From positions 104,697,759 to 104,761,758 of the forward strand of contig NC_080578.1 of NCBI RefSeq assembly GCF_029962835.1: DNA of 64,000 bases, in the 5' to 3' direction. Origin of the DNA: Magnolia sinica. Taxonomy: Eukaryota; Streptophyta; Magnoliopsida; Magnoliales; Magnoliaceae. Made by a program: the position numbers and the translations under genes. Numbering within the stretch: the stretch's first letter is position 1; each line of letters begins with the position of its first letter. This document shows, piece after piece, positions 14,856 to 42,966 of this stretch. The notes under the pieces are model-generated. The model did no database searches and had not been told where the DNA came from. It saw only the letters and a program-made list of their open reading frames with translations.

Positions 14856-17263
14856 TGTCAGGATTTACAAACATAGTACTGTTTAACGGCCTGATTTAAT
14901 CATGTTTGTGATGCAGGGCGTATTCACGAGCCTGGAGTGGAAAAGGGTACTAAAAGCATGGATTTAATGGTCTGAAATCACCAAGGCAAGCGACGGACCC
15001 TAGGAGACCAAGATCGACAGATTTGCACGTCAGGGATCCAAGAAAATCGAGAAATTGAAGCTCAAGTGGCCTGAAAAGCGTCCAGAATGCAAGATCATAG
15101 GGTTCCCACCATCTGATCAGTTCGAAACTCCATACGTGGCTTGAGGACCATAAATTAACCGTACATATTAAATTTCAGCCATTGAAGGTCTCAGAAAATG
15201 GGCCAACGGGTAAATCAGCCCATTAAACTCCAATTTGGGGCCCACTTGATAACAGGATATGCTTCAATTTTGGTATCAACCTCTTAAACAGGGAGGCAAA
15301 ACGAATGGATGGATTGGATTTGGAAAAATCATCACAGTGGACCCTGTACGTGATGCATGTACACCATGCACACCAACGCCCGCGCCGCATCGGAATCGGG
15401 AGATAGGTTAGCAGAAGCTAACCTGATTTCCTGCTTAAACACGGAAAGCTCCGTCTTTTGCTCCACAACAGGGGTCGCGGTCGACGTCAGTGGGCCACCA
15501 CCGTGCATAAAAGGTCCAATCCGAACCATCCATGAGATTTATATGGCCCATGCCACTCAGGCCTAGGTGGAGAAATTTTACAATATAATCGGAGATTGGT
15601 TTTCGATCGTCCAAACAGAAAACGGACGGCGACTTGAAAGATAACGTGGGCCACACTGAAACAGACCCAAAACTGATCACGTCCGACCGATTTTTCGAGA
15701 TGAAATCATTGGACGGCGTGGATTTACTAAATCGACAGCGAATGGGGCCCGCCATCATCACAGCGTAAGAATTACGCAGTCCCTGTTTACGCAGGGACGT
15801 GCGTTCGTGCGTCTGGCCTTCCGTGGCCCACCACCGTTGATTGTATGGTCCATCTAGACCGTTCACAGGCTCCAGGGGATGGGGATGACCCCAGCCAAGA
15901 TATCCTTTTGCTTCAATGCATGCCCACACAGGCAAATCTCATGTAAACGCAAGAATAGACGGTACAATTAAAATCCTGATTGGTTGCACCAAACCAGAGT
16001 AGAAACGGTCATGTCTGACTAGTTTTCCGTGCACAATCCAGTGGACGGACTGGATTTTTCATTTGACGTTAATCAGGGGCCCACCGACTTCAACAGCGTA
16101 AAGTGTTATGCAAGGATTGTGCGGCCGCAAGTTCCGGACGTTCCGGATCGTTGAGGCTCTTCTCCGTTGATTGGTATGTCCATCTGGACGGTACAAACTG
16201 TTCCCACGGTGGGACTAATCAGAGCCAAGGCAACTGAATGGCTCGGATCTTGCATTTGACAGCTCCTGTAACTGAAGATTCTGTTCCAAACGCAGACCAG
16301 CTGCGTAAAGATGTTCACATCGACTCCGCCTGCCGTGCGGAAATCCAGCCGATTATAGCTATCCACGGGCTGTTTCCTTGTGGGAAGAACCATCCGACCA
16401 ACCTTCCATGCAGTTATAAAGACAAAACAGGAGGATTGGAAGCCGGGGAGTTGGCTTGGTCTGACGGATGGAGAGCTGCACATGAGCAACGTTGGCAGGC
16501 TTGGTTTTCGCTTTTTCTTTTCTTCTTCTTCTCTTGTTTATGTTGGATTCAGCCTAAGCATGTCCATTCTTGGCTGAACCTCTTAGCTAGAGCTAAGAGG
16601 TGAAGCTTGTAGCGAGATGGGAGATATTATTTCCTGCTTTTCATTTAAATTCCTGAACTGAAGTTGATTTGTATTGATTATTAATGAAATGTTTTTTTTC
16701 TTAATCTTTAATGGTCTGTTGTGACTGAAATTACAATGGGTCTGCAACGACTTTGAGTATTTCTTTTTCTTTTTCTTGGATGTTTATGACGTCAAGAAGC
16801 CCTGTTGTTCACCATCGTCTCCTGGGCATGGTTGGATGATCATACCCTTCCTGACCTTCATAGCATGTTGATTGGTTGGTAATTAGTTTAATTCTTTTGT
16901 CAACTTTGTCTCCTGGGCATGTTTGGTGATGGAATCCATTCTAATTCATATACCTTTCATCTCTTTAAAATTATATCAGAAGAAGTCCAGTTTAATTTTC
17001 ATAATTTTTGAAGCAGGCATAAGATCTCCCTGATCTCTACAAGTGGATCCTCTGAATCCCTAGTTTCCTTCCTCTGAATTCCTTAAGTTTTACATTAATC
17101 TCTCACCATTATTCATCAATTTATATTTGATTTAGATTGCATCTTAGGCTAGTTCTATTTCTACCTAGTTTCAGGAAACGTACAAGTTTCAGTCCCTGTG
17201 GATTCGACCTCGGTCTTACCGAGTTTATTACTACATCACAACCCTATACTTGGGGAGTGAACA
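14856..17263 (+). repeat. Long LTR, probably Ty3/gypsy (Tat-like), plus strand
   Basis: The right end has the U5 signature of many plant gypsy LTRs: GTCCCTGTGGATTCGACCTC, then ACCGAGTTTATTACTACATC and CTTGGGGAGTGAACA. The proposed left end is TGTCAGGATT at 14856. I found no matching 5-bp target duplication, so the outer limits are approximate and the unit may be composite. ORFs inside (for example the 166-residue minus frame at 15435-15935) show no protein family. Confidence 0.5.
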
Positions 17264-24510: not shown

Positions 24511-24551
24511 CCTTCAATAAAGAATTCAGGGGGTACGGTGGGGCCGAGGGT

Positions 24552-25064
24552 GGACGCGGATTGCCCCGAGACCTGGATGTCCCTGGCGACCGGACTCTCT
24601 GAGGTCCACCACGATGTATTTGTTTTATCCACACCGTCCATTCATTTTTTCAGATCGTTTTAGGAAATTAATCCAAAAATAAGATAGATCCAAAGTTTAA
24701 GTGGACCACACCAGAGGAAACACTGGAGATTGAACACTTACCATTCAAAATTTCTTGAGGGCTACGGAAGTTTCGGATCAAATTCAAATTTGTGTTTTCC
24801 CTTCTTCCAGGTTTGTATGACGTTATGAACGTGTTGAATTGGCAAATCAACATCATGGTGGGGCCTATGAAGGCTTTAGGAGAGGGTGTCATTATCCCTA
24901 CTGTTTCTTGTGGTGTGGTCCACTTGAGCTATGGATCCGCGTCATTTTTTAGAATCAAGCTTTAAAAAATGTGGCAAGACAGATGGACGGCGTGGATAAG
25001 ACATATACATTGTAGTGAGCCCCAAAGAATCAGGTCACCAAAGGTCTTCTGGCAATCCGCGTCC
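24552..25064. mobile_element. Fold-back Mutator-type MITE, copy M1
   Basis: Ends GGACGCGGATTGCC and GGCAATCCGCGTCC. Flanks GCCGAGGGT (24543-24551) and GCCGGGGGT (25065-25073) form a 9-bp target duplication with one mismatch. The two halves are inverted copies of each other over most of the length (GTGGACCACACCA..GGAAAC against its complement), so a transcript would fold into a long hairpin. Non-coding. Confidence 0.88.
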
Positions 25065-25135
25065 GCCGGGGGTTTGTAATTTGTACGCGGCATTAGGGTG
25101 GTCCGCTCGCAGGGCCCTTGTTTTGAGGCAAGCAT

Positions 25136-25671
25136 GGGCGCGGATTAGCTACTGACTGGTTGAGTAGCAAGACGCGTTCTGAAGTGACGTCACCAAGTTC
25201 CGTGGGCCTCACCATGATGTATGTTTTGTATCCACACCTTCCATCCACTTGGAGAGATCATTTTAGGGCAATATCCAAAGAATGAGTTAAATCCAAAGCT
25301 TCAGTGGACCTCAGCACAGAAAACAGTGGGACAGTGACCCCACGGTTAAAAACTTTAGCCACAAAAGTTTTAGATCAAGCCAATATTTGTGTTTTCCCTT
25401 ATTTCATGTCTTTTTTAACTTTTGAACAGGTTGGATTTCAAATAAACATTATGGTGGGCCTTAGGACAGTTTCAATGATAGGAATCACTCTCCCCACTGT
25501 TTTCTGTGGTGGGTTCCACTACAACTTTTTATCTACCTCATTCTTTGGCTCATGCCCTAAAATGATATCTAAAAATGGATAGATGGTGTGAATACAACAC
25601 GTACATCATAGTGGGGCCCACAAAACTTGGTGACATCACTTAAGTAGCCAACTTGGTAGATAGGAGTACTC
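25136..25671. mobile_element. Fold-back MITE, copy M2 (right end eroded)
   Basis: Left end GGGCGCGGATTAGC matches the family terminus. Inner inverted arms AAGTGACGTCACCAAGTT (left) and AACTTGGTGACATCACTT (right) are clear. The right outer end no longer matches and abuts copy M3. Confidence 0.75.
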
Positions 25672-26248
25672 GGAAGCGGATTGGCTGGTGTACCTCACAC
25701 CAGCAATATAGCTGCTTTATTGATGCAGCAAGTTTTGTGAGCCCGATCATAAGATATGTGTTATATCTAAACTGCCCATCCATTTAGCGAGCTCGTCTTA
25801 AGGTTTTAGAAGAAAAATAACACAGATATAACTATCAAGTGGATCACACTGAAAAAAGCAGCCGGGGATTGAACATCTACCCTTGAAACCCTTTTTGGGG
25901 TCATAGAAGTTTCTGATCAGTACGAAAAAAATCCTCTTCATTCAGGTCTTTGTGACCTTTTAAACAAATTGGATGGAAAATAAATATTATGATAAACCTT
26001 ACAAATTTTTTAATGGTAAAAATCATTATCTCCGCTGCTATTTGTGGTCCATATGATCTCCAGAGATGGTTCAGTTTTTGAATAATACTCTAAAATAATT
26101 TCTAAAAATAGATGGAACGTATAATAAATACATCTATATCGCTTTAATCTCCCTTGAACCGTTCGTACAACTCGAGCTCGAGGAGCGTCAGTGCTCGTCC
26201 TACAGCAGCTATATAGTTTACGTGTGGTACACCAGCTAATCCGCTTCC
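25672..26248. mobile_element. Fold-back Mutator-type MITE, copy M3, with perfect 9-bp target duplication
   Basis: 577 bp. Ends GGAAGCGGATTGGCTGGTGT and ACACCAGCTAATCCGCTTCC, flanked on both sides by GGAGTACTC (25663-25671 and 26249-26257). This is the best-defined copy and sets the family's 9-bp duplication. Non-coding. Confidence 0.93.
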
Positions 26249-26257
26249 GGAGTACTC

Positions 26258-26950
26258 CACTTTGAATGGTCTATCCATCTGCCAGCTGTCCTTGTACTAA
26301 CCCTTCAATTTGTAAAACAAAGAAATTGTTATGATCAACGGTCCACATTCAACCAAAACTAGGCTTGGATTAGATAGATAGGAACTTGTGTTCCCAGGAA
26401 TTTAATTTTGGATCAATCATCAGTGGCCCACTTTACTGAACATAAATAGATAAGCAATTTTTACAAAATAAGAAAAAAAAAATCAATAATCTCCATCTGT
26501 CATGAATAAGTTGCCAGTTGCCACCATTTTGAAAATGGTGGACAGCTATCAGAGCAGCGTAACACAATAAAAAAGCCTACATGTGGCAACGATATGATAT
26601 ATAAGCATGGCCCAAAAATGTAGATTGATCATGTGATCGAGGTTGACTCTGTGTGGTCAGTGGATTGGTGATTTGCCTATTGGGTATATGGGGTCTCTGA
26701 CTTAGAGCCTAATGGACAAGACCTGAAATATATGCAGGGTAGTTTAATAGCATCAAGACCCGGATATTGCTCCGAATCTGAAGGCAGGGAAAGTGGTTTG
26801 ATTCCAGTCAGTTGTTGATCTGGCTGCCTACTTACATGGACCAAAAAAGAAGACCCAAATTTTATAAACAATGCATTGTGGATAAAACATGCAATACATT
26901 GCATTGGCGTGTTTAGTTGATCATGTGTAGTATTGAAATTAAAACCCACA
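26258..26950. other. Intergenic, nothing recognised
   Basis: Contains no supported gene. A short 12-bp inverted pair (CCACCATTTTG/CAAAATGGTGG, about 26522-26543) is the only local structure seen. Confidence 0.5.
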
Positions 26951-26954
26951 TGTT

Positions 26955-27272
26955 TAGTGCCCGTTTGGATACCACCAAATAAGTTACCTTTTCTACTTAG
27001 AGCGCAGTAGATAAGTAACTTATTTTAGGTAAGTAAGTTTGGTTTTTGATTAGTTATAAATAATTTTTTATTTAAAATTACTTAATCACTTCAGTTACTA
27101 ATTTTATCTTTTTAATTTTTCATAAGTTGCTTAATATGAGACAAAAGAGAGGAGAAGCTGATAAGTAAGTTGTTTACTAAATGTACTTATTTTCTTAGTA
27201 AGTAGAAACTAAGATAAACTATTTGTAACATAAGCAACTTCTTTTAAGAAACTTACCGTCCAAACGCCCCTA
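26955..27272. mobile_element. MITE with GTTTGGA-type ends (probably hAT)
   Basis: Ends TAGTGCCCGTTTGGATA and, inverted, TAGGGGCGTTTGGACGG, with AT-rich internal arms full of AAGTAACTTATTT/AAGTAAGTTGTTT repeats. No clean target duplication was identified. Confidence 0.65.
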
Positions 27273-27906
27273 GTGACTCGCGTGTGGTATTTAAAACATC
27301 CTTGGGGATTAAAAGGCCTGCGCAAGGATCTTCCCAGGTACAGATTCAATGAAGAACGGTGGGGTCATGTCTTAAGGGATTAGACCACGTCGCTGTGAAA
27401 CACAGCAGCTGAGAGAGGACGTGCCGTAATGTGATCTGACAGAGTATATAAGTGAGGAGTACACCAGGGTGCTTGATATATCCATGCTGTAGGAAGTCAG
27501 CAAAATGAACTTGTAACTTTTGGAGAACTGTGCTCTTTGGTAGACTAGATGATTTTTACATCGATAATGAAAGGGGACAGTGGAAAAAATAATTAAAAAA
27601 AATAGAAACAAACAAAAATTTGAAAAATAAAGCATGTAAGAGATGCACATGGTCCAATATCAAATTGGTGGAATGGTCTAATCAATGTTTTTTTTTGGGA
27701 CATGCTCCATCTAAGGCAGGCCAATGATGTGACACCGTGGATTAACTTATATACATGCATGTATGGAACAATAAACAAATACATGTTGATTAAGCATGGT
27801 GCAATTTTATATTGTTGCAGCAGGCGCATGGTTAAAAGAGGAGCACCAGCTTCTTCCGCAAGTGATTCCTGAATCTAGCTATTAGGAGAGAAAATCACTG
27901 AAAATA

Positions 27907-27908
<2 letters not shown>
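27273..27908. other. Intergenic, nothing recognised
   Basis: No supported ORF (the 92- and 78-residue minus ORFs lack motifs). Confidence 0.5.

Positions 27909-27972
<64 letters not shown>
27909..27972. repeat. (AT)n microsatellite, about 32 units
   Basis: Uninterrupted AT dinucleotide run of about 64 bp. Confidence 0.97.
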
Positions 27973-27974
<2 letters not shown>

Positions 27975-28364
27975 CTTACTGCATTTCTAATGGCCTATAT
28001 GAGAAAAGGAAGCCTTACACTTCTAGTCCGGCTTAAAATAGAAAACTGTCTTAAATTACTAAAACGAAACATTAGATTGATATTACTCCCAAAACCTTAA
28101 TACTACCAAGAATGCAACTTACTAAAAGCAACAAATGACAATTTGAAATTTTATTTTAACTCAATTTTTTATTTACAAAAAATACTATTGAACTCTATAA
28201 CGCTAAATGAGGGCCAGGGCATGCAATTCCCTGTAGCTTTTTAATAACGTATTATATTTATGAGGTGGCTAAAAAGCCAGAAGAGCCATAGGGTCCACCT
28301 GAAGTTATGGGTTGGGTGCTGACCCTAACACTAAGACAACCTTCTCGTGTCAAAGCTCGGATTC

Positions 28365-28712
28365 ACTATGATGTATGTGCTTTGTCCATGCCATCCATCT
28401 ATTTTTTGAGCTCATTTTGGAGTAGATGGCTTAATGGTAAAGCTTAAGTGGACCACAACATAGGAAACCCTTCAAGTGCCTAACAATGTGTATTTGTTAT
28501 CCAACTTGTTCATAAAGTCACATGTACAAGATGAAGGGAAAACACAAATATCAGTTGATCCAAAACTTTTAAGATCTCCATTGTTTCCTGTGGTGTGGTT
28601 CACTTAAGCTTCAAATATGCTTCGATTTTGGGATCATGCCCTTAAGTGAGCTGGCAATACAGATGAACAGTGTGGATAAAACGCATACATCTCTATGGGC
28701 CCCACAGATACA
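28365..28712. mobile_element. Fold-back MITE, copy M4 (core)
   Basis: Core from ACTATGATGTATGTGCTTTG to ACGCATACATCTC..GGGCCCCAC, with the family's AAGTGGACCACAACA and TGTGGTGTGGTTCACTTAAG arms. The right terminus seems to continue after copy M5 (GTCACCGCGCAGTCCGCGTA, about 29264-29283), which would make M5 an insertion into M4. Confidence 0.75.
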
Positions 28713-28720
28713 TGATGTTG

Positions 28721-29253
28721 GGAAACGGATTGGCTACTCCCCCTGCCACTGGCCGCTGGTGGTTGGTGCTCCGTGGACTCCACCATGATGCATGTGTTTC
28801 ATTCATGTTGTTCATCCATTTTTTACAGATCATTTTAGGGCTTGGTCCAAAAATGGATGTGATATAAATCTCAAGTGGACTACACCACATGAAAACAATA
28901 GTGATTTAATATCCACCATTAAAATCCTCAAAGGCCCACTGTGCTGTTTATTTGAAATCCAATCTGTTAATTAGGTCATACCAACCTAGATCAAGGGAAA
29001 AAACAAAGATCAGTTTGATCCAAAACTTTTATAGCTTTCAAAAAGTTTTTAATGGTCTACGTTCATTTAACACTGTTTCTTATAATGTAGTCCACTTGAG
29101 ATTGGGATATACCTCATTTTTTGTCTCATACTATAAAATAATCTGAAAAAATAAATGAACGGCATGGATGAAACACATACATCATGGTGGGGCCCACAGA
29201 GCACCGACCATCAGCCATTGGCTGGTGGCAGGGAGAGTAGCTAATCGGTTTCC
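28721..29253. mobile_element. Fold-back Mutator-type MITE, copy M5
   Basis: 533 bp. Ends GGAAACGGATTGGCTACTCC and GAGTAGCTAATCGGTTTCC, flanked by ATGATGTTG and GTGATGTTG (9 bp, one mismatch). The halves are inverted copies (TCTCAAGTGGACTACA against TGTAGTCCACTTGAGA). Confidence 0.88.
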
Positions 29254-29283
29254 GTGATGTTGGGTCACCGCGCAGTCCGCGTA

Positions 29284-30069
29284 CGTCATTGATGTTTAAA
29301 AATCTTAACTAATGTTGGAGCACGCGTTTTGGTTGGTTGGTTTTTAAAACAACGAAACGCCATCTCTCTCCCAAACAAAGTCTTCTTTTTTGAGCAGGAA
29401 AAGCGGAGTAGGTTGATTGACGCAACCCATCAAACCCCACCCCCCAAGTCACGTTATTTGAACGGCTATTACGGCCTCAAGTAATGTGAACACTGTTAGG
29501 TCCAATTTGATTAGGGATCCCGACCATTGATCTCAAAGAACTCTCAATGGATGGATGATGCCTGAAATTTTCCCTCCATCAGATGATTCTAACCCTTGGA
29601 TCCATGTCCCCTGAAAATGAACAGAAATGGTCCATCCTAGATCTATGGGATAGAATCGTTCAATGCTGAATTATATTTGGGATCCAGAGTGGAGAATTGA
29701 ATCAACGGTGTAGATTGACAGACCATGAGGCTCAAATGAGGAAATGAACGGCATCAGGACATTATTCATTGAGACCTCATAATCCGTCGGATGTGAGGCA
29801 CATTGCCGGGGAAGAAACGAAGAAACCGTCTTTAAAACCACAAGCACGAGAAACTGTTGCTTGGAGGCTTGCCAATTACAAAGCGTCTACATCCGTCCAA
29901 TCTATGCGAGCGTATAACATCTACGCCCTACATTGGGGGTGACGCAGGGTTAGATGTGATGAGGTTGATTTCGTCAGCGGAATGTTTGCAAACCCTACAC
30001 GCTGGCAAAGCTGGGCATAGATGCTGAAGACGACGTCTCCAAATTCACGAGCATCTCTAGACTCCGTAC
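29284..30069. other. Intergenic, nothing recognised
   Basis: About 0.8 kb without a supported ORF or repeat ends; it may be old LTR-internal or host spacer DNA. Confidence 0.5.
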
Positions 30070-30555
30070 CAAACCTAAGAAGTTAATCAAACTCTTTACT
30101 TAAAATTTCTAAAATACGTGACTTACTATAAATAATAAATTAAGTATTTATAAATAGTAAACTTATTATTTACAGATGATCATGATTTGTATTAGACTTC
30201 AAAGTTTATATCTCCGGGTCTAATTTGGCCTAATCACATTATTCTCTTAATATATTAAGCCTTTATATATTGGACACGACTCCTAAAGCTTAAACGATCA
30301 AGAGTTATGGCTTAATAAAAACTTATTATAAATAGTAAAAACAAAATTAAAATAAACTTTCAACCATTGATGTGATGAAATCCGGCAAATTTGGCATAAC
30401 CAACTTAGTGTAGCCGAGTTGAGTGGCCAAAGTAATTTCTCCTACCCAAAATCGTCTACGTACATTGAATAACTCATTCCAATTCGTGATATATGACTAC
30501 TTTAGGTACCGGTCCCAATCACTTCTGCCTCCGTCATACGACCTGCTCCACATCA
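30070..30555 (-). repeat. LTR fragment of the TGATGTAGAG family, minus strand
   Basis: Minus strand from 30555 begins TGATGTGGAGCAGGTCGTAT and runs parallel to the solo LTR at 34070: shared GAAGTGAT..GACCG, ATGAGTTAT, GATTTTGGGTAGGA, TACTTT.GCCA and TTTTACTATTTATA blocks. The 3' side is degraded. Confidence 0.75.
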
Positions 30556-31094
30556 GGTGGCCCTTCCACTTTTAATTCCCTGACCTAGAACATACAGCTA
30601 GTTTACATCTAAGCCGTCTGGATTTTTGGAGCATGTTTCATTAACGACGTGGCTCACGGATTAATGCTCCGGATCAGCCTAATGCGGTCCCCACTTGTAG
30701 CAAGACCAGGACCCATTCATATACTCTGTCCACCGATCATATGACTCGAACACTTGCACGGCGCTACCCGCATCGCACCTGCAAGATAGGAGACGATAAT
30801 CAGGTGAGCCCCACCATGCATATGTTCATATGGACGGATCGCAACCAAAATATTCGAGAGAAAAAGATGGAAAGTTGAGAATAATTGTTGACGAATGGCC
30901 CACATTTCAACGGCCTAACCTGCCTGATTTTGGAACATGGTTGCTTCCACGGTAGAAGTAGGTGGACCCACCTGATGAGTTGTCTGGACACGTGCGTGCT
31001 AGCAAGAGTAAACCCGTTTTCGTTTTTATTAAAAGCTGAAAGCTTGCACAAAAGGAACTCCTGTGTTAGATTTTTACAATCTAAAAGTTACCGG
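30556..31094. other. Intergenic, nothing recognised
   Basis: No supported gene. Short ORFs on both strands overlap one another without family motifs. Confidence 0.5.
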
Positions 31095-31345
31095 TAGCTT
31101 TTCAAAACCACACATGGACACAGTTTCATGGCAATCAAGACCGTCCAAATTTCTCACCCAACTTTGGATGGACATAATTATAAAATGATTTCACTGCTTT
31201 ACTTTTAGCTATCCATTTGATAGACATTAATTGGATGGTTATGATTGCTGGATAAGTATGATTTTAGATATGTTTTCCAATTCTCAGTAGGACCCACAAT
31301 TTGAATGGTCTGGATGGGTTTATTTAAATCAGCGCCGCATGTGAG
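31095..31345. repeat. MITE-like repeat family B, copy 2
   Basis: Counterpart of 24242-24510: TGGCAATCAAGACCGTCC, TTGGATGGTTATGATT and GACCCACAATTTGAATGG in the same order and spacing. Confidence 0.6.
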
Positions 31346-32199
31346 AAGGATTAGTCACCACCAATATTTAAATTGTCCAAGGACTAACACAGGAGTCTGA
31401 CGGCTAGAAGAAGAAGACCTTGCCTGGAGACGACTGGCAGAACAGAAAATGTCATTTTCTTTCTGGAAAGCCTACTCACACGAAATTTCCACTCGCTTTT
31501 TAAAACGAGGTTGCTTCTGCTTATTTATTTTTTGGACATCGCTTGTACATCACGTGTTCATATTGTAACGAACACCTCTTGGACTCGCTCGACTCATTTA
31601 CATAGTGCGTTGCTTCGCACGTGGTAACGAGGTATGCGTGTGAGAGATCAGAACCGTTCACCAGGCAGTCCAACAACATGAAATCAGGCCACTTGATCAT
31701 TATGTAGGTTACACGTGTAAAAAGAGAAGAACGATTATAGTAATAGACCGACGATTGAAATTCTCTGTAAGTGTGTGGCCCATATGATGATCATATTTTC
31801 ATCGGTTTAGATCCAATTGAATTGATAGAGTGAGGAGCTTCTGACCAGCCGTTCCGATCCTACACTCCTGTGACTCCATTCCACGTGCGAGATGAATGCA
31901 AGTTGCAGTCTTCGCAAGCATACTCGATCGCTTGAGGTGTGTGACACGTGCACGCTTAATGTAGAGATTTTCTTTCTCTTTAACTAATCTTACATTTCTT
32001 TAGAAGTGCGGCCCACGGATGTGTGAAGTGGTCTGATGAATGACGGAGATACAACACAGATGTGCCTTGTTGGCATGTGTCCCATTCATTTCATGGGAAC
32101 CGTTCGGCTCCTGTTTAATTAAGCAATTGCACGTAGTCAATGGTGAGTAAGTAATAATTACTTTTATATTTTTTTGGAAATATAGACTATGGTGTTTAC
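31346..32199. other. Intergenic, nothing recognised
   Basis: No supported gene or complete repeat in this 0.85 kb. Confidence 0.5.
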
Positions 32200-32470
32200 C
32201 AAAATCCTATTGCCCCGTGACATTTGTGTTATATTCAATTTATTCATTTTTTCTAAATTATTTGAAGATATGAGCCAAAAAATACGGCTGATCAAAAATT
32301 TAAGTAACCTACAATGAGATTAATTGCTTCTATTGTTGAACCTATTGTTATTTGTAGTGTGGTCCGCTTAATCTTTGAATTGGCTAGCTAATTTTTGAGC
32401 ACATGTTTAAAATGATTTAAAAAGATAAATGAATAGTGTGGATATAATACATATGTTATGTGGGCCATTA
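32200..32470. mobile_element. Fold-back MITE, copy M6 (partial)
   Basis: Degraded core with TTGTAGTGTGGTCCGCTTAA, TTTGAATTGGC and GTGTGGATATAATACATATG, matching the right half of the family. The left half is poor. Confidence 0.6.
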
Positions 32471-32507
32471 AAAGTTATACAATTTTTAAGATGGAAGTGA
32501 TAAAAAT

Positions 32508-33077
32508 TAGAGCGCGGTACATGAGTCGAGCTTGGCACAACTCGGCTCAGCTCGGCCACTAACTGACCCCAGCTCGAACTCGGCTTGACTGGGTCCTCGA
32601 GCTTGATTGACCAGCTCGGATCGGTTCAATCAGCACCTTGGGCTAGTTTGAGCCGAGTTCGATCCAAGATTGAGTCAGTGCGGCGTTTTCTCAAACACAT
32701 GGAATGCACCTTGAATTTCTCACACAATGTAAAACAGCAGCAACAGTTTACATGTATTTCATCAAACACTCAGTATCCAACATCAAAATCAACATACAAA
32801 GGCATTTGTTTTATACCCATACTTTCCTCGCCACCAGCCGACACGTTGTGGAGTCATTTCATCAAACACTTCGTGTGCAACATCAATATTGAAATAGCTA
32901 AGTCACCGAACTAGTTTGATCCGAGCTCGGACAAGCTTGAACTGGGCTCGAAACTTTTTCGAGCTGCTAAAATCAGCTCGACTCAGCTCAAACTCAACTT
33001 CGAACCATGTCGAATCGAGTTTTTTCGAGTCAAGTCGAGCGAGTTAGCCGTACTAACCTGGTTAGTGTATAGCTCTA
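32508..33077. mobile_element. hAT-type MITE with perfect 8-bp target duplication, 570 bp
   Basis: Ends TAGAGCGCGGTACATGAG and, inverted, TAGAGCTATACACTAACC. Flanked by ATAAAAAT on both sides (32500-32507 and 33078-33085). Subterminal parts are packed with CAGCTCGG/CGAGCTCGG/TCGAGT motifs. Non-coding, related to 23229-23813. Its TAGAGC ends match the left end of the hAT element at 46156. Confidence 0.9.
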
Positions 33078-33169
33078 ATAAAAATCTTCATTTTACTTTT
33101 ACTACCACTTATCACCATTTACCTCCAATCAAACCAGCCTCACAACACAGTATGAGCTAGGATAGGCAC

Positions 33170-33610
33170 GAAACTTCACAGAGTACACCAAGGTGTATTG
33201 CCCTTAATTTTGTGGGACCAACGGTAAAGTTTGTATTATATCAAATTTATTTATTAGTTTCTCAGCTCATTTTATGACATGAACCCAAACATAAGTGAGA
33301 TCTATAGCTTAAGTGGGCCACACCATAGAAAACAATGGCAATGGAAATGCTCACTATTAAAACCTCATTGAAGCCTAATATAGGGTTTATATGCCATTCA
33401 ACAAGTTCGTATGGTGATTCCCAGATATTCGAAGGGAAAAGAACAAATATAAGCCTGATCCAAAACTCTCTTAGCTTCCAAGAAAGTACCAATGGTGGGT
33501 GCTTAATCTCCACTATTTTTTGTATTGTAGCACACTTAGAGTTTTGGATCTCCTTCGTGTTTGGGCTCTTAACATAGAATTAGCTAGCGGAATGGACGGA
33601 TGTAGTTGAT
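33170..33610. mobile_element. Fold-back MITE, copy M7
   Basis: Core with CTCAGCTCATTTTATGACAT, AAGTGGGCCACACCATAG and, inverted, TGTATTGTAGCACACTTAG and GAATGGACGGATGTAG. Outer ends not resolved. Confidence 0.7.
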
Positions 33611-33871
33611 ATGATAAAAAAATATCAAGGTAACCAAACAGAGCTTGGGATTAGTGGGGATTCCTGTGTTGACAGGTAGCAACCATTCGTGGTTGCTTTC
33701 GCAAACCGATTGATTGAAAATCATTGGCTCTGAAGTAGACATATTTTGTTGAACTTGGTTCATTAAATGCTCATAAAGTGGCAAGTCATGGTCATACTTT
33801 CAGTGTAATCTCTGGCTTATAATCCATCTATCTAAAGATGGGCCATGCCATTCGTGCATTTGGCCTTGATG

Positions 33872-35137
33872 AGAAAGCATAATCCGTTCAACCCACGAAA
33901 CAGATCGACCTGATTTTTATTATTATTATTATTTCTTTTTTTGCCCAGTGATCAACGGTTCGAATGCCCAACGGCACATAAATTTGGTTAATTGAGATGG
34001 ATGTGGACATATCCCAAGAGAGAGAGAGAAAGTGTGTGCGTGGATGTGTACATTTTCACTTTTATTTATTGATGTAGAGCGGGTCGTGGACAATTTCATG
34101 GCCAAGATGGATCATAAAAGGCCCGGTCAACGACGAAAGTGATCCGGACCGTCGGACCTTAGATCGGGCGTATCTCGCAATCCGGAATGAGTTATCTAAT
34201 GTAAGATATATGATTTTGGGGTAGAACGAGCTACTTTAGCCAACCAACCTGGCTATGCCGAGTTCTGCAACCCAGAATTGCGAAAACCCCTGGATCGACG
34301 ACCATTTTTCTGTTTTAATTTCGTTTTTACTATAAATAATAAGTTTCAGTTTAATTATAACTATTCATCCGTCAGGCTTTAGGAGTTGCACCAAATGTGA
34401 AAAGAGCTTAAAATAATTAGGAGAACGGTTTGGTGAAGCCAAATAGGACACTTACTATTTTTGGCCGAAAACCTTGTACACTAGTAGCAATCACGACCGT
34501 CTATAAATAGTAAGTTTACTATTTATAGTAAGTCGCGAATTCTAGGAGTTTCAGTTGTAGTTTAATTCTAATTTCTTTCTCATTGCTTGGTATCCCTATT
34601 TAAAGGGTTGTGAACTTATTTTTATTCATTCATTAATCAATTTCGAATTTATTAGAATTTATTTATATTTTGTGCTTTCTTTCCTCGTGGATTCGGGAAG
34701 TCTCTGTGAGGAGTCAAAAGAAGTTTCGTGGATTCGGAATAGTTATCCTCTTGAGGAAGACGGTGATCGACCTCACGTCCTCTCCTACGTCATTTATTTA
34801 TTTAAAATAATTATTGGGTACTATCACGACATCTAGTCACAATTAAATCATAACCGTTTAAAGTAGTACTCGTAAGAAAGCATAATCCGTTCAACCCACG
34901 AAATGGATCGACCTGATTTTATTTATTTATTTATTTTATTTTTACCCAGTGATCAATGGTTTGGATGCCCAACGGCACATAAATTTGGTTAATTGAGATG
35001 GATGTGGACATATCCCAAGAGAGAGAGTGTGTGGTTGTGTACATATTCACTTTTTATTTATTTATTTAAAATAATTCTTGGGCATCTCCACATCTGACCA
35101 CAATTAAATCATAACCGTTTAAAGTAGTACTCATAAG
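33872..35137. repeat. Tandem duplication of about 270 bp, first copy split by a solo LTR
   Basis: Unit 1 is 33872-34069 plus 34793-34871; unit 2 is about 34874-35137. Both start AAGCATAATCCGTTCAACCC and end CCGTTTAAAGTAGTACTC. The solo LTR at 34070-34792 is present only in unit 1, so it went in after the duplication. Confidence 0.85.
34070..34792 (+). mobile_element. Solo LTR, TGATGTAGAG family, with 5-bp target duplication
   Basis: 723 bp from TGATGTAGAGCGGG to CTCCTACGTCA, flanked by TTTAT on both sides (34065-34069 and 34793-34797). U5 holds CTCGTGGATTCGGGAAGTCT and GAGGAAGACGGTGATCGACC, typical of a plant LTR family. No internal region remains, consistent with LTR-LTR recombination. The family is probably Ty3/gypsy, by inference. 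Confidence 0.9.
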
Positions 35138-35184
35138 ATTTATAACTAATATAAAATGATCCACACTTTATTCTTAGATTCTCG

Positions 35185-35199
35185 TGTGTGTGTGTGTGC

Positions 35200-35238
<39 letters not shown>
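35185..35238. repeat. (GT)n then (AG)n microsatellites
   Basis: GT run at about 35185-35198 followed by an AG run at about 35202-35238. Confidence 0.95.
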
Positions 35239-35241
<3 letters not shown>

Positions 35242-35392
35242 AAATGGAACACTTATAATAATATTTTAAAATTCAAATAATTCAAAGTTCGAAACGGAAG
35301 TTATCTAGCTAGAGGATGAGGCATTGATACATTAATATGCCCCTGCAAGCTCAAAGGGCGTTCAAAAATGTCAAGCTTGGATTGTAACAACT

Positions 35393-36055
35393 GAAATTAT
35401 ATACAACTCAAGCCTTCGGTGAAAACACTAGTGATCTGATTAAAAGTGCCAACAGACCGAACCATAACATCCCCACGAGATACCTTTTTGCAAATAAAAT
35501 GGTAGTCCACTTCTACATATTTTGTATGGCCATGATAAACAGGTTTGGATGCAAGAGATATAGCACTTTTAATGTCACAAAATATGAGAGGATGATCCAT
35601 AAGATACAAAGATAAATGACTCAAAAGCATCCGAAGCCAAAATAGCTACAGCAGTATGAGCAAGTGAACAATACTCAAATTATGTGCTAGATCTTGAAAT
35701 TGTAAGTTGTTTTTTAGCCTGTTAGGAAATAAGATTATTACCAAGAAAAATAGCAAAACCCGATATGTATTTACGATCATCTGGATCACTAGTCCAATCA
35801 GCATCAGAATAAGTACGAAGAGTAAGGGAACCTTTTCAAAAATGAAGACCGTGTGTTACTGTGCTTTTGAGAAAGGAAAGAATATGCTCATTTGCTAACT
35901 AGTGGGTTGTACGAGGAGCATACATAAATTAACATACCTGATCAACAGCAAAGGCAATATTTGACCTGCTGATAGTTACATATTGCAAAGCTCCGGTAAT
36001 GCTTTGATATTCATGAAGATCGGAAAGGAGATCACCATCATATAGTAGTGGGTTG
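35393..36055 (-). mobile_element. Ty1/copia fragment: RT end and RNase H, minus strand
   Basis: Minus strand encodes RNase H text (HPLIFCDIKSAISLASKPV, then HTKYVEVDYHFI). Further right are RT/RNase H border motifs (YSDADWTSDPDDRK; DLHEYQSITGALQYVTISR). It is truncated and broken, and its left side (about 35140-35392) is AT-rich with no LTR recognised. Confidence 0.8.
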
Positions 36056-36059
36056 GGTG

Positions 36060-36339
36060 GTATTTATACTAAAAGTTACTATAAATAGTAAAAATAAAAT
36101 TAAAATAGGAATTCGACTGTCAATCTAATAGTATTTCACAAATTTTATGTGGGCAACCCAGTGTAGCGGGTTGGGTGGCTAAAGTAGGTCGTCCTACCCT
36201 AAAATCATATATGGTACATCCGATAGCTCATTCTAGTTTACAAGATACGTCCGTTTTAATTTTTGATGGTCTGGATCACTTCTGTCGTCAACAAGGCCTT
36301 ACCTTGTCCATGAAACTATCTGCGACCCACTCTACATCA
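36060..36339 (-). repeat. Truncated LTR of the TGATGTAGAG family, minus strand
   Basis: Minus strand from 36339 begins TGATGTAGAGTGGGTCGCAG and follows the solo LTR at 34070 for about 280 bp (GAAGTGATCCAGACC, ATGAGCTATC, ATTTTAGGGTAGGACGA, ACTATTTATAGTAA), then stops beside the copia fragment. Confidence 0.8.
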
Positions 36340-36978
36340 GCAGGCAGGATCGAAAGAGAAAATCTCTTGTTAGAGTCCGATACCATGTAAGACTTGTAAA
36401 TAATATAAAATGATCTATACTTAAATTCTTAATCCTCAAGTTTTATTTTCATATGTATAGAGACGAAAGTGGAACAGTTACAATAACATTTTAAAATTGA
36501 AATAATTCAAAGTTTGAAACCGTTGTAATACAGGTGGAGGATGATGTGTTGATACCTTAACAACACTTGACTGATGACAATGACATCGTAAAAGTTGAAT
36601 TAATTTAACTCAAATTAGACCTCGCAAAACATGTGACTGAATTCAGATGAGTTATGAACAAGAGTTGCATCCGGATCATGTTCGAACGAGGCCGATTGGT
36701 GGACACGTGATGGACGGATGAAATGAAATACAACCAATGGACCAAAATCCAACATCAGATGTCCACTGATCAGAAATCTGATCGTTGAACCCAATCTGAT
36801 TTTAATGTTATAACCTGTCTACGTATGGTCTCATGACTCACACGCGTTCATTGAGTCACATGTATAACACGTGTACAATTTCTTAGCAATGTGTCTATGG
36901 AGGAATGGACATGGATTGCCTTTTTACTTTCTTTTTTTCTTTTTACACGCACTCACACGAGGCATGAGTAAGGACCTG
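36340..36978. other. Intergenic, nothing recognised
   Basis: No supported gene. One segment (36390-36560) resembles 35140-35300 (TATAAAATGAT.CA.ACTT, GAAACG..), a diverged duplication. Confidence 0.5.
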
Positions 36979-37943
36979 GACATAGATTGCATGAAGCTAG
37001 ATAGTCTGTTGTGATATTTGTGAGAACTCCGCCTCATCCGTCCGTTTTGCTAAATCATGTTTCAACAAGAGCTCAAAAATGAGACAAATCCAAAGCTCAA
37101 GCAGGTCCCAAGATATGAAAAAGTAGGTGAAAAAATACCTACGGTTGAGATCTCTCTAAGTTTACCATGAAGTTTATGTGCCATCTATGATTTTCATAAT
37201 GTCATTTCATGGAATGATTTTCAAAAACAAAAAATATCATTCTGACTTAAAACATTTGTAGCCCACAAATGCTTCAATTGATGAACATTCAATCCTTACT
37301 ATTTTTTTTTATCATACTGCTTACTTGAGTTTTGATCTACCTCATTTTTAGATTATCTCATAATGTGTTGGAGAAAGAGGGATGGAGAGATGGACTTCTC
37401 ACAAACATCACAGTGGCTAGAGTTGGGCATTGAGTTCAGTCAGACTAAGTTAGGGCTGATCCAACTCGATCCAGTTTTGAAATAGGCTTGACCTGACATG
37501 TGACATGGTACTGAGTCCAGCCTGGACTAATTCTAACCGAGTTCGACCCAATCACAAGCACCGAGTCAAGTCAAGTCGGCACTGAGTCGAGTCAGTTGCA
37601 ATGGGTATCCACAAACTAAAATCACAACCAAAACCTAAATTCACCTACCGGAATTGTAGCCTCCGTAGGCCACAAGGCATCTCATATTTGAAACATTAAA
37701 TCTGAGGTTAATAACGAGTTGGATTTCAGGCCGAGTAGAGTCGAGTGACTGGGTGACTCGAACTTGACTCAGTTTGAGTTTGGATTGGACAAAGTCTACT
37801 CGATTCCCACTCAGCTTGAATCGAGTCGAGTCTTAACAAGTCGGACAAGTCAAGTTTGCCGAGTCAAGTGGTCCTGTGCCTATCTTTAACAGTGGCCCAC
37901 TTAACTAATTATCACGAGAGGCTGTGGTAGGCAATCTGCATCC
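36979..37943. mobile_element. Fold-back MITE, copy M8, interrupted by a hAT MITE
   Basis: Left arm 36979-37417 and right arm 37897-37943, with GGACATAGATTGC and GGCAATCTGCATCC at the outer ends. The interior carries the family blocks (GCTCAAAAATGAGACAAATCC; ACTTGAGTTTTGATCTACC). The right arm is split by the element at 37418-37888. Confidence 0.7.
37418..37888. mobile_element. hAT-type MITE with perfect 8-bp target duplication, nested in M8
   Basis: 471 bp. Ends TAGAGTTGGGCA and TGCCTATCTTTA, flanked by ACAGTGGC on both sides (37410-37417 and 37889-37896). The interior has many GAGTC/GACTC and CAAGTC motifs (AGTCGAGTC, CTCGACTC class). Confidence 0.85.
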
Positions 37944-37961
37944 ACAAATAATGAGCATGGC

Positions 37962-38436
37962 CTCAGTGGATCCTTCGGTGGATCCTTGACTGTGTGGCCT
38001 ATCGTAATATACAATTATTTACATCTGCCCTGTCCATTCATTTTAACGCATCATTTTAAGGTGCATCCCAAAAATGAAGCAGATCTAAATCTCAAACGAA
38101 CTGCACCACGGGAAATACTGTTGATTGAATACCCATCATTAAAAACTTATTAGAACCACCGAAATGTTTATTTACCGTCAAATCTGTTTTTAAGTTCACA
38201 AAGACATGGATGAAAGCACTGTACAAATATCAACTTGATCCAAAACTTTTGTAGCCTATAATAAGTTTTTAATAGCCAGTCACCACTGTTTTCTTAAGTG
38301 TGGTCCACTTGAGATTTGAATCTTCTTCATTGTTAGGATCGTCCCCTAAAATAAGCTTTCAAAATGGATAGACACTGTAGATGTAAATCACATACATCAA
38401 GGTGGGCCCCACAGTCAGGTATCCACCGAAGCTGTG
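37962..38436. mobile_element. Fold-back MITE, copy M9
   Basis: Inverted arms CTTCGGTGGATCCTTGACTG (left) and CAGTCAGGTATCCACCGAAG-type (right), with the family core in between (GTGGTCCACTTGAGATTTGA). Confidence 0.8.
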
Positions 38437-38502
38437 CCCCCCAACTATCGCTCTGCTTGGTCCAGCTGGATCCATGGAGGGTCGTGACCCTGTCACACCA
38501 GT

Positions 38503-38840
38503 CGCGGCTTCCGTGGATCCCTGACTGTGGGCCCCACATTGACGTATGTGCCTTACATCGATGATTAAAAATCATCATCATCTAAAATTCCAGTGGTCCG
38601 CAGTACACGAAATAATATTAAATTACTATTAAAACCTCTACTTTCGTACGTTGTGGGGCTCTGAAGTTTTGGATTAATCTGACTTTTGGGGAATATATTC
38701 TTACGGCGATTAGAATCTAATGAACGGGTTATATGGAATAGACAAATCACTGTGAGCCCCACACACAAACCTACGGTTGGCATCTCATTTCAAAGTTTAA
38801 CTGTAGTGTAGCCCATCTGATGGTTGAGATGTTACATCCA
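38503..38840. mobile_element. Related MITE copy M10, diverged core
   Basis: Starts with the same CTTCCGTGGATCCCTGACTG arm as M9, then GTGGGCCCCACATTGACG. The core is only partly alignable. A short ATGATTAAAAATCATCATCA fold lies at about 38561-38580. Confidence 0.6.
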
Positions 38841-39170
38841 TGGTTGTAGTTTCTTCAAAATCATCATCTATTATTGATACTTGAACCAAGAGCATGCAAG
38901 TTTATGATGTTGATGGGTGGGCTTGGCCCAAATATCATAAGCCCAGTTATTAACAGACCAAGCCCAAGCCTAACTTAATGATCCATTAATAAACACTGGC
39001 TTGGCTTAGACCTGCCCATGGGCCCCCATGATTAATAGAGGTAGAAAGGGCTGGGTCTAGGTCGAGTCTAGAGCTATCCATAGTCATACCCAGCAATGAG
39101 TAAAGATGTGTAAGTCCAATACTCACACCCAAGCCCACTAAGGTGTTGTGTGCCCATTAAGGATCGTTTG
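38841..39170. other. Low-complexity GGCTTGGCC/CCAAGCCC-rich repeat
   Basis: Repeated short GGGCTTGG and CCCAAGCC motifs resemble subterminal repeats of a degraded hAT-like element. Ends were not found. Confidence 0.4.
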
Positions 39171-39720
39171 GCACCATGGATTTGAGGATTTGAGGAGATT
39201 TCAAATCCTGTGATATGTTTGGCACCATAAAGTAAGTGGGGGTTTCAAATCCAGGGGATTTCAAATGGCTTACATTGAAAATCTTTTCAAGAGTTGCATG
39301 TGTGTCATTATACTACTAATCTATTAGGCACATGCCGCTACTATAATTACTTTAATAGGATAATTTGCACCGTCCAAACATCCCGAAACAATCAGATTTT
39401 CAATTGCATCACTATAATTATTTTGATAAGATAATTTGCGTCGTCCAAACATTGTCCATGTAAATCAACGGTTAAAAATTGTTGGTTAGTTACTCAGATG
39501 TGATCTTGTACTTGTGGCCTATCCAAGACTTGGAATATCATCATTTTCGAGCAAAGTATATATTTCAATGGGCTTAATACAACCAATGTGTTAAACAGTA
39601 TATATGTACATAGAGATATTAAAGTTGATTTACTAATTAAATTCAAACTCCTGTAAATATATTATGTATAGTTACTTTTGGAGCAAAGGAATTCTGAATC
39701 CAAGGTGCCAAACACAATGG
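39171..39720. mobile_element. MITE with GTTTGGCACC ends, about 550 bp
   Basis: CGTTTGGCACCATGGATTTG at the left and CAAGGTGCCAAACACAATGG at the right are inverted. A second GTTTGGCACC lies at 39218 and further TTTCAAATCCAGGGGATTTC repeats occur inside and to the right (39720-39760), so two copies may be nested. The superfamily (Harbinger or hAT) is not resolved. Confidence 0.65.
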
Positions 39721-39760
39721 GAGGATTTCTAATCCAGGGGATTCTAAATCCACACTCTCA

Positions 39761-40364
39761 ATTATATTTAATATTTTTTAAGAAATGCCGAATGTCTAAA
39801 TCTATTAGCATATGTAACACTATCATTGCAAAGTAGTGATGAATATAAATTGCCATCCATCACACTTCGCTATAATATAAAGTTTTTATCTTCAACTTTT
39901 TGTTTCCTTTTTTACGTGGGGCCATAGCAGCGAATGTATGCCATCCAACCCATCCATCAAGTGATTCCCATCATATAATGGGATGCCCCAAAAATCAAGA
40001 CTAGCTAATCATTTGGTGGCTCACATGATAGTTGGTTCAACTTGAAATTTACGTGCCCCACTTTTATGGTGCGGCATGCAGTAACCCCACACATAAAAGG
40101 CCCTAGCACAAGCTTATCATTATAGAGGAACTGTTTTTTTTTTTTTACATAGTTTTGTGAATTGCAAAAAGTGCTAATTGTAATTATGATTTACCAATAA
40201 CGCATTATAAATTTATTCCAGCATTAGCTATATATACAAATTTGTTATATATATTATGATTAGGCATGGCCAGATTTGGGTATAGGTAAGTGTATACACA
40301 TATAATAATTAATTGGGCAGAGCCTTGGCAAGGTCAGTATCCCAGCCTGTTCAGTCAGCAGCCT
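39761..40364. other. Intergenic, nothing recognised
   Basis: AT-rich, with a poly-T tract near 40135 and no supported gene. Confidence 0.5.
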
Positions 40365-41451
40365 GGACAGTTTGGCTAATGACCAACCCACAGCGGTTAG
40401 CTAGCTGGTGACAAACTCCCTTACATTTTTTCAGCTCATTTTAGGTCATAAGTCTAAAAACGAGCAACATCCAAATATTAGATTGGCCACGCCATGGAAA
40501 ATGATGGGGATTGAATGCTTTCTTTAGAAAATTTTTAGGGGCCACAAAGGTTTTAGATTAGGCTGATATTTGTGGTTTCTCTTCATCCAAGTTTGTGTGA
40601 CCCTATCAAAAAGTTGGATGTCAAACAAACATCACAATGGGACCTAGGAAGTTTTTAACAGTGGACGTCCAATCAACATTATTTTCCTGTGGTGTGGTCC
40701 ACCTGAGATTTGGATGTACCTTGTTTTAGGGCTCTTGCTTTAAAGCATTGATTGAGTGCCTTCAATTTGATGTTGAAACATGGGATTTTAATCAGATTGA
40801 ACAGGTTATCAATCAATCGAGAAAGTTCCAAAAATATGAGCGTATTCGCTTAACAGTTTTGGGTGTGACAAGTTATCAATCAATCGAGAAAGTTCCAAAA
40901 ATAAGAGCGTATTCGCTTAACACTTTTGGGTGTGTTCGATTCGATTGAATGTGGGGTGTCGATCAAAGTCGATCAATCGACGGTTTGCGCAACTTCTACG
41001 TAAGTGTGTTATTTTGTTTCTAATTTTGTAAGCAGGTTATATAAATTATATTAATACAATATTAGTATTAATTCTAAGAGTGCAAAACATAAGAGCTTGA
41101 TATTAAAAGGATTTTGAAGGGAGAAAATTAGAGTTTTCATATCTGTAAGTTGTTTCATCTCTTATAACTTTCTGTTTATAGTAGATTGTTCGTCTTTTAG
41201 TACTGTAATTTTTTCTTACAATAATTTTTCCACATAAAATCTATTTATTCTCTGTTATTGCTCAAAATTTTATTTTCTCTGATACATATTTGATTCATTC
41301 TAAGGTTGTTTCTATGCCTAACGTGTGGCAACGGTGTAAACATAAAGAGAACTGGAAAGATTGTGGATAAAATACATGCATCATGGTGGGCTGACAGAGC
41401 TTTGACACCCGCTAGTTGGCTAGTGTTTGGGTCACTAGCCAAACTACATCC
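40365..41451. mobile_element. Fold-back MITE, copy M11, split by an LTR-like insertion
   Basis: Inverted ends GGACAGTTTGGCTAATGACC and, at the right, GGTCACTAGCCAAACTACAT. The family core lies at 40430-40740 and resumes at 41343 (GTGGATAAAATACATGCATC). Confidence 0.8.
40746..41342. mobile_element. Solo-LTR-like insertion, 597 bp, in M11
   Basis: Flanked by TAAAG on both sides (40741-40745 and 41343-41347). The right end reads GGCAACGGTGTAAACA, and the right third is T-rich with TTTTCCACATAAAATC and CTGTTATTGCTC motifs like copia U5. It contains a 67-bp tandem duplication (40805-40871 and 40872-40938). The left end does not start with a clean TG, so the class is inference. Confidence 0.6.
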
Positions 41452-41499
41452 CTAAAAATGATGGTGGCGTGGTGGGCTAGAGTTGTGCCCTGATGTGGA

Positions 41500-41945
41500 C
41501 CACTAGTGAGTTCTTCCTATCTAGTCAGAATAGGATTTCGTATTGAGTAAGCGTATCGAGTAAACTCTATGGGTTCACCTTGATTTATGTATTTTATCTA
41601 TTCCATCCTTTCATTTTATCACACAAATTTAGCACTTGAGCCCAAAAATGAAATATATCCAAAGTTCAAGTAGACCAATCACAGTAGAAAACAATGTAAA
41701 TTGAACATCTACAGTTGAAAATTTCTTGAGGGAACAAAAGTTTTGTATCAACCTATGGAATGTATCAAGGTTTCAATGGTGGATATCATTATGCCCACTA
41801 ATTCTTTTGGTATGGTCTGCTTGAGCTTTGATTATGCTTAAATTTTGGGTTCATGTCATAAAATGAACTAGGAAAATGGATGGATAAAGTAGATAAACCA
41901 TATACATTCACAGTAGGCCTAAGAGTTTACTCATTACGATCAAAT
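41500..41945. mobile_element. Fold-back MITE, copy M12
   Basis: Inner inverted arms GAGTAAACTCTATGGGTTCA and GGCCTAAGAGTTTACTCATT bound the usual core (AAGTTCAAGTAGACCAATCA; TGGTATGGTCTGCTTGAGCT). Confidence 0.75.
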
Positions 41946-42008
41946 TAAACTGAATTACAATCAGATTTCTAGCCAGTCATTTGTATTTTTACAGTTTAGC
42001 CCATGGGA

Positions 42009-42516
42009 AGTGGATTACATCCTGACGATAATCCATTTAGGCAAGCCTTTGTGGGCCCCACCACAATGTGTGGGTTTTATCCACGCTGTTTATTTATTTT
42101 TTCAAATCATTTTATGACACGAGCCTAAAAATGTTGTAGATTTAAGGCACGGGTGGACCATATATAGAGCAGGGATTTATTTCCCACAATTAAAACCTCC
42201 TTGATAGCTGCATAAGTTTTGGATCATGCTGATATTTGCTTTTTGCCTTCATTCATATATATATATATATATATTGGATGGCAAATATACACCAAAGTAG
42301 CCCTTACAAAGGTTTCAACTGTAGGAGTCATTATCATAGTTATTTCATGTGGTATGGTCCACTTGAGATTTGAATCTCCTTCATTTTTAGGATGATATTC
42401 TGAATTGATCCCAAAAATAAATGAACATTGTCGTGAACAAAACTCGTACATAACAATGGCCCCATGGAGTACCTGCCTGGACGGATTATGGTCTAGGCAG
42501 GGCAGGACGCAATCTT
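42009..42516. mobile_element. Fold-back MITE, copy M13
   Basis: Inverted outer parts GTGGATTACATCCTGA..ATAATCC and GGATTATGG..CAGGACGCAATC. The core has a short (AT)n run at 42256-42273. The edge with the next copy is not sharp. Confidence 0.75.
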
Positions 42517-42966
42517 TTTTCGCACACCTACCGTGAATGTATGTAGTCTTTCGTACATCCGTTTTCTCAGCTTATTTTTGTGATTAAGCCCATAATTTAA
42601 GTATATCTAATCGTACTATCAACCTTACCAAAAGAAACAGGGGGAATAATGATTTCCACCGTTGAAACATTCCTACAGCCTATAACTATTTCTATTTGTA
42701 ATTTAATTGGTTCGTAAGATTACACAGACATTGATGAAGGTAAAACATAAATATAAGTTTGATCCAAAATTTATGTGGCCGGGTGATTTTTCAACGGTAA
42801 AAATTTAATTCTCACGGTTTATTGTGGTGTGGTCCACTTTAACTTTGGATATGCTTCTTCTTGGGCTCGAGCCTTAAAATTATATGGTAAAATGGATGGA
42901 CGGAGTGGATAAAATTCATGAATCACGGTGGGCCCACAGATTACTCAGTAGGCAATCTGCTTCCGG
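42517..42966. mobile_element. Fold-back MITE, copy M14, directly upstream of the ALP1-like gene
   Basis: Core blocks TTGTGGTGTGGTCCACTTTA and GATGGACGGAGTGGATAAAA are present. The right terminus GGCAATCTGCTTCCGG matches the family end and lies about 140 bp before the ATG at 43104. Confidence 0.75.

Follow-up and report, generated by a model that had tools for sequence, protein, structure and literature searches.

A fold-back MITE cluster in Magnolia sinica is a local sample of a very large clan spread genome-wide

A stretch of about 18.4 kb in the genome of Magnolia sinica is crowded with short fold-back elements, which raises the questions of whether such crowding is peculiar to the locus, what kind of element is involved and how it multiplied. 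We analysed a window of 64,000 bp (C6:104697759-104761758) together with the genome to which it belongs (1.839 Gb in 127 contigs), using an arm profile that was first built from 28 arms (14 elements, among them M1, M5 and one copy from random sequence) and then rebuilt with its 136 first-round matches. With the rebuilt profile, of 166 positions, we obtained 34 matches across the window, 130 across 20 random 10-kb segments and none in reversed sequences. The initial annotation had listed 14 copies, and we found two inverted arm matches at 14 of the 14 sites, as well as two single-arm pieces absent from that list. The features are as follows.

24552-25064, unstranded: M1, two arms with tips GGACGCGGATTGCC at both ends, 513 bp (arm profile, joint search, tip search)
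24543-24551 and 25065-25073: target duplication of M1, GCCGAGGGT/GCCGGGGGT, 8/9
25136-25621, unstranded: M2, left tip GGGCGCGGATT at 25136, arms at 25202-25621, right tip unrecognised
25672-26248, unstranded: M3, two arms with tips GGAAGCGGATT, 577 bp (arm profile, tip search)
25663-25671 and 26249-26257: target duplication of M3, GGAGTACTC twice, 9/9
28359-28705, unstranded: M4, arms, with a decayed tip AGTCCGCGTAC at 29274-29284
28721-29253, unstranded: M5, two arms, GGAAACGGATTGGC subfamily (arm profile)
28712-28720 and 29254-29262: target duplication of M5, ATGATGTTG/GTGATGTTG, 8/9
32215-32466, unstranded: M6, arms only (arm profile)
33212-33631, unstranded: M7, arms only, still folding better than shuffles (z -4.1)
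37011-37416, unstranded: M8, arms only, with a one-mismatch tip at 36907-36920
37992-38412, unstranded: M9, arms only (arm profile)
38527-38762, unstranded: M10, arms only (arm profile)
39918-40030, plus strand: single-arm piece absent from the initial list (arm profile)
40422-40745, unstranded: M11, arms only (arm profile)
41571-41919, unstranded: M12, arms only (arm profile)
42051-42463, unstranded: M13, arms with degraded tips (arm profile, joint search)
42527-42964, unstranded: M14, arms at 42527-42935, right tip GGAAGCAGATTGCC (minus strand) at 42951-42964
15235-15344, minus strand: single-arm piece outside the cluster, absent from the initial list (arm profile)

A tip form shared by all copies had also been proposed. 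The tip itself is real, with GGANNCGGATTGCC at up to one mismatch occurring seven times in the window, all within the cluster (0.17 expected), and GGNNNCGGATT exactly six times, again all within the cluster (0.96 expected); it is not common to all 14 copies, and the exact form of GGANNCGGATTGCC is confined to M1, at both ends. Both tips survive only in M1, M3 and M5, whose flanking 9-bp duplications are perfect in M3 and have one mismatch in M1 and M5, as had been described. The proposed inner block was recovered at up to four mismatches in eight places in the window, seven of them within the cluster. When tips, inverted repeat and duplication were searched for jointly, M1 and M5 scored 39, against a top score of 22 in 100 random placements; M3, whose true tips lie outside the range searched, obtained a spurious score of 23, and the other 11 copies scored 21 or less or gave nothing. 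Single tips are commoner than tip pairs among the cluster copies. The count of copies was thus right and the tip is genuine, but most cluster copies no longer have a recognisable pair of tips. A single tip class for all copies was unsupported outside the subfamily picked by exact core word.

The 9-bp duplications extend to copies elsewhere in the genome. We collected 13 two-tipped elements from 28 targeted loci (8 + 20), the 20 random segments and the window; this is a small set from mostly one chromosome, with 11 targeted copies on contig C1, one random copy and one from the window. The match between their flanks peaks at length 9 alone, with a mean of 0.829 (five perfect, four with one mismatch and the rest 7, 6, 5 and 2 of 9), whereas at lengths of 3-8 and 10-13 it stays at chance level (0.185-0.286, none perfect). 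The 5-of-9 pair, at L005, is by eye a one-base indel, and duplications matching at 7 of 9 or worse occur in 4 of the 13 copies. The claim of a fold-back MITE family with 9-bp duplications hinged on other lengths being absent, and none emerged in these 13 copies, few and largely from one chromosome as they are. Both the fixed-length duplication, seen in the 13 elements, and the size are those of MITEs (under 800 bp, terminal inverted repeats, many copies): the 13 paired elements measure 477-551 bp, M1 513 bp and M3 577 bp. Judged by length alone, the elements are unlikely to encode a transposase.

We observe that the clan reaches far beyond the window, dispersed genome-wide with reversed and control counts near zero. 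The core word at up to two mismatches occurs 167,951 times on both strands of the genome (control 46), compared with 28,368 (control 97) for one subfamily's tip word at the same tolerance and 2,377 (control 289) for the exact tip form of the initial annotation, so the inner arm is far more widely shared than any single tip tested. In the 200-kb random sample of 20 segments, arm-profile matches cover 8.1% of the sequence (bootstrap CI 4.0-13.2%); an earlier BLAST estimate with five queries on the same sample gave 4.5%. The sample holds 31 two-armed elements, 10 of them in segment L010, and 72 pieces, which scale to about 285,000 elements (CI 129,000-487,000) and about 660,000 pieces (CI 349,000-1,039,000) genome-wide. 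Three words occur in the sample as often as genome counts predict (18 vs 18.3, 20 vs 18.2 and 56 vs 57.7 expected), and a fourth, the tip word, was seen 0 times vs 3.1 expected. Five of the 20 segments have no pieces and two have one, while L010 carries 18 pieces in 10 kb vs 15 in the 18.4-kb cluster; the density that had been called exceptional is therefore not so. What the cluster offers is a local sample of a single, very large clan that occurs throughout the genome.

A complete element of about 480-580 bp consists of the tip GGNNNCGGATT, a spacer, an arm, a centre and the mirror image of these, with the 9-bp duplication flanking. The spacer is subfamily-specific and roughly 33-49 bp long, and the arm, of about 165 bp, starts with GTGGGNCCCACC. 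Across the random segments and the window, a model of outer arms alone matches the centre of 14 two-armed elements, at E 2e-8 to 8e-3; the match starts at model positions 2-5 in 13 elements and at 17 in one, and reversed sequence gave none. With the rebuilt profile, a third arm match appears in 21 of the 31 two-armed random elements and in 4 of the 14 window elements. Additionally, three centres aligned pairwise scored 38, 34 and 26 vs 22, 24 and 23 for the top of 200 shuffles. Because both the outer-arm model and the pairwise alignments match the centre, the loop is, as read from these comparisons, a third, degenerate arm copy, the element being built as arm, degenerate arm and inverted arm. 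Upon examining the tips, we recognised one at up to two mismatches and at the right distance for 70 of 132 core matches, vs 17 in the reversed-letter control. Among the 43 core matches of the random segments alone 13 have such a tip, which indicates that random copies are mostly decayed, truncated or other-tipped. Within one element the two spacers are more alike (0.79) than they are between all arms (0.58), which raised the idea of hairpin-driven arm homogenisation; we did not retain it, as arms seem to keep separate identities. In many GGAAAC copies, by eye, one arm carries CCAATGG-like and the other CYCCGTGG-like letters. For 12 copies of the GGAAAC subfamily the mean K2P distance from the consensus is 0.094, a value that likely understates the age of the clan since 11 of the 12 were picked by exact core word.

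Next, we asked which transposase might have moved these elements. Mutator target duplications measure 8-11 bp, usually 9 bp in plants, and other common plant superfamilies produce duplications of 2, 3 or 8 bp; the 9 bp of the 13 elements agrees with the former. MULE transposases are plentiful in the genome, given that 150 of 1,104 PF10551 candidates and 150 of 804 PF03108 (MuDR-type DNA-binding) candidates were scored and listed. Of these 300 listed domain matches we took 16 MULE loci: L029 (5.5 kb, containing a frame of 780 aa), the fourteen 2.7-kb 3' flanks L050-L063 and the 7.8-kb L064. No autonomous partner with clan ends was found in the 16 loci, 14 of which were covered as 3' flanks only, and the profile detected no clan end in the right orientation in any of them; clan copies in the flanks L051 and L059 are bystanders. 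Tip-like matches with three mismatches in L060 and L061, AATCCG without the closing CC in L053, and one one-mismatch tip match inside the open frame of L064 were taken as chance. The proposed Mutator assignment thus fits the duplication size, the long inverted repeats and a MULE-rich genome; with 0 of 16 loci carrying clan ends, the case for membership is built on the length of the duplication, the long inverted repeats and an argument by exclusion. That same zero would be expected if the fold-back MITEs came from another superfamily with 9-bp duplications, an origin that we consider unlikely, as 9 bp is the usual size for plant Mutator elements and MULE genes are abundant here.

Among the MULE genes, we also observe at C5:104687089-105198382 at least 15 PF03108 (DBD_Tnp_Mut) matches, all on the plus strand, with stop-free open frames of 634-843 aa over about 0.5 Mb, which are likely a tandem array of transposase-derived genes. 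Among the matches listed, C1:123541724 and seven other sites share the same PF10551 score of 115.7 bits, six of the eight with open frames of 715-780 aa, which suggests a recently amplified MULE family; for L029, the one of these eight that was examined, the ends of the element were not found.

Our preferred reading remains a Mutator-type one. The clan, whose anatomy, 9-bp duplication in the sampled copies, dispersal and decay we observed directly, is very probably an old, very large and non-autonomous fold-back clan, most likely moved in trans by MULEs, of which the cluster is a local sample. A Mutator-like (MULE) transposase would act on the elements in trans, and the same enzyme would make a staggered 9-bp cut that leaves the 9-bp target duplication; insertion in and beside older copies would then let clusters build up, with TCP-type words carried along as passengers.

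These words lie at the start of each arm, which begins with GTGGGNCCCAC and so holds both TCP consensus words, GGNCCCAC and GTGGNCCC, as given in the available text of PMC10130365. GTGGGNCCCAC occurs 265,353 times in the genome vs 1,290 for the reversed word, a roughly 200-fold difference, and together with the following CCNTGATG, at up to one mismatch, 167,617 times vs 6 in the control. In the random sample, 21 of 28 GTGGGNCCCAC sites lie in an arm match or at most 12 bases from one. Both marks of TCP-site amplification by MITEs, enrichment of the word and a place inside MITE copies, are present, TCP binding being putative. These figures, along with near-perfect GTGGGNCCCAC in 33 of 95 arms anchored on the inner arm vs 10-24 for neighbouring blocks (at slightly different cut-offs, 9/10 and 10/11), are what one might expect if the arms were retained as host regulatory modules and the clan partly domesticated. 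We regard this as very improbable, as the mean match of GTGGGNCCCAC in the same 95 arms is 0.72, within the 0.69-0.74 of four neighbouring blocks, and the word is exact in only 15. In the end columns of the profile, GTGGGNCCCAC had seemed strongly and specially conserved, but local alignment biases those columns, and little of the effect was left in the anchored test. Passenger amplification of TCP-type words is the simplest reading.

The initial annotation had further suggested that nearly the whole element is a hairpin, and this was borne out: the long arms let most of the element pair with itself, and predicted folds beat shuffles, with z-scores of -19.4 for M5 and -20.7 for a genomic copy in L007, and more weakly for the decayed M7. 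Such strong predicted folds could also mean that the hairpins are retained as small-RNA loci; we give this slightly less credence still than domestication, as hairpins follow from inverted arms alone and no Rfam family attains its cut-off in the window between 24000 and 43500.

With regard to the growth of clusters by transposition, the right end of M4 is probably interrupted by M5, which sits inside the right spacer of M4 (joined flank read by eye). At L007 (1439-2656), a clan element at 1439-1989 is followed by its duplication, one base and then another element, whose tips are of a different class. The probable placement of M5 and the adjoining elements at L007 suggest that new copies enlarge clusters by inserting into, or next to, older ones. 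That tandem or segmental duplication instead produced the cluster as a local array, as the clustering of pieces (variance/mean 5.3 per 10 kb) might hint, can be dismissed almost with certainty, as the clan is dispersed genome-wide and target duplications vary from copy to copy.

Compared with known systems, the clan shares with plant Mutator-superfamily MITEs its short, putatively non-coding elements, inverted ends, 9-bp duplication and high copy number, and differs from them in that the element is a hairpin over its whole length, formed by two long arms around a loop that is itself a third copy of the arm. In the available text of a survey of 207 plant genomes, Mutator accounts for 41.5% of MITEs, copies per genome range from 13 to 368,869, and MITEs make up 6.04% of the rice genome (PMC12550479). 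Set against those totals, the approximately 285,000 two-armed copies of a single clan would rank near the top of the counts given there, with thresholds that differ between the two. Long inverted arms combined with a Mutator-like assignment also characterise the Mutator/Foldback elements of root-knot nematodes, Tm1 for example, going by the accessible part of PMC3169594; Tm1 belongs to another host kingdom and is likened here by description, not by sequence. Furthermore, MITE copies multiply transcription-factor words, E2F in Brassicaceae and TCP15/23 in tomato, according to a review (PMC12595863). The clan copies likewise carry and multiply a putative regulator word; what may set them apart is the amount, 265,353 palindromic words vs 1,290 in the control. 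No literature on Magnoliaceae MITEs was among the matches listed, and six 16-letter element words returned no literature matches; as subscription papers are thinly covered, both are weak evidence of novelty.

The Magnolia sinica assembly comprises 1.84 Gb in 19 chromosomes with a scaffold N50 of 92 Mb, and its repeats amount to 56.99%, with LTR elements at 48.9% of the genome, in the available text of PMC10999834; on these figures, about 8% of the genome is left for all other repeats. We raise as a possibility, more doubtful than secure, that the clan makes up at least about 8% of the genome, rivals in amount all MITEs of the most MITE-rich plant genomes surveyed, is the source of most of the roughly 265,000 palindromic TCP-type words and is possibly the most extensive known spread of a regulator site; a large share of the clan may belong to the unclassified part of the published annotation. 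At such a size the clan would count among the main components of the genome, and an LTR-centred annotation may miss it. It would also provide ample natural material for asking whether transcription-factor words borne by MITEs are regulators or decoys, and it bears on how a fold-back element with an arm-repeating loop arises. Overall, the element is of an ordinary kind in an unusual amount; the core of the original claim stands and its special local density does not.

Other features of the window accompany the clan. Genes lie towards both of its ends, as seen from a beta-galactosidase (GH35) exon at 1044-2009 and a Kelch-repeat frame at 63479-63997. An open frame of 361 aa at 59016-60098 carries a PIF/Harbinger-type DDE_Tnp_4 domain. 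At 33872-36560 there are long direct-repeat pairs with spacings of about 1.0 and 1.2 kb (families D6, D7, D9 and D12), apparently unrelated to the clan, and at 40801-40934, adjoining M11, a 67-bp unit is present in two head-to-tail copies that are 96% identical.
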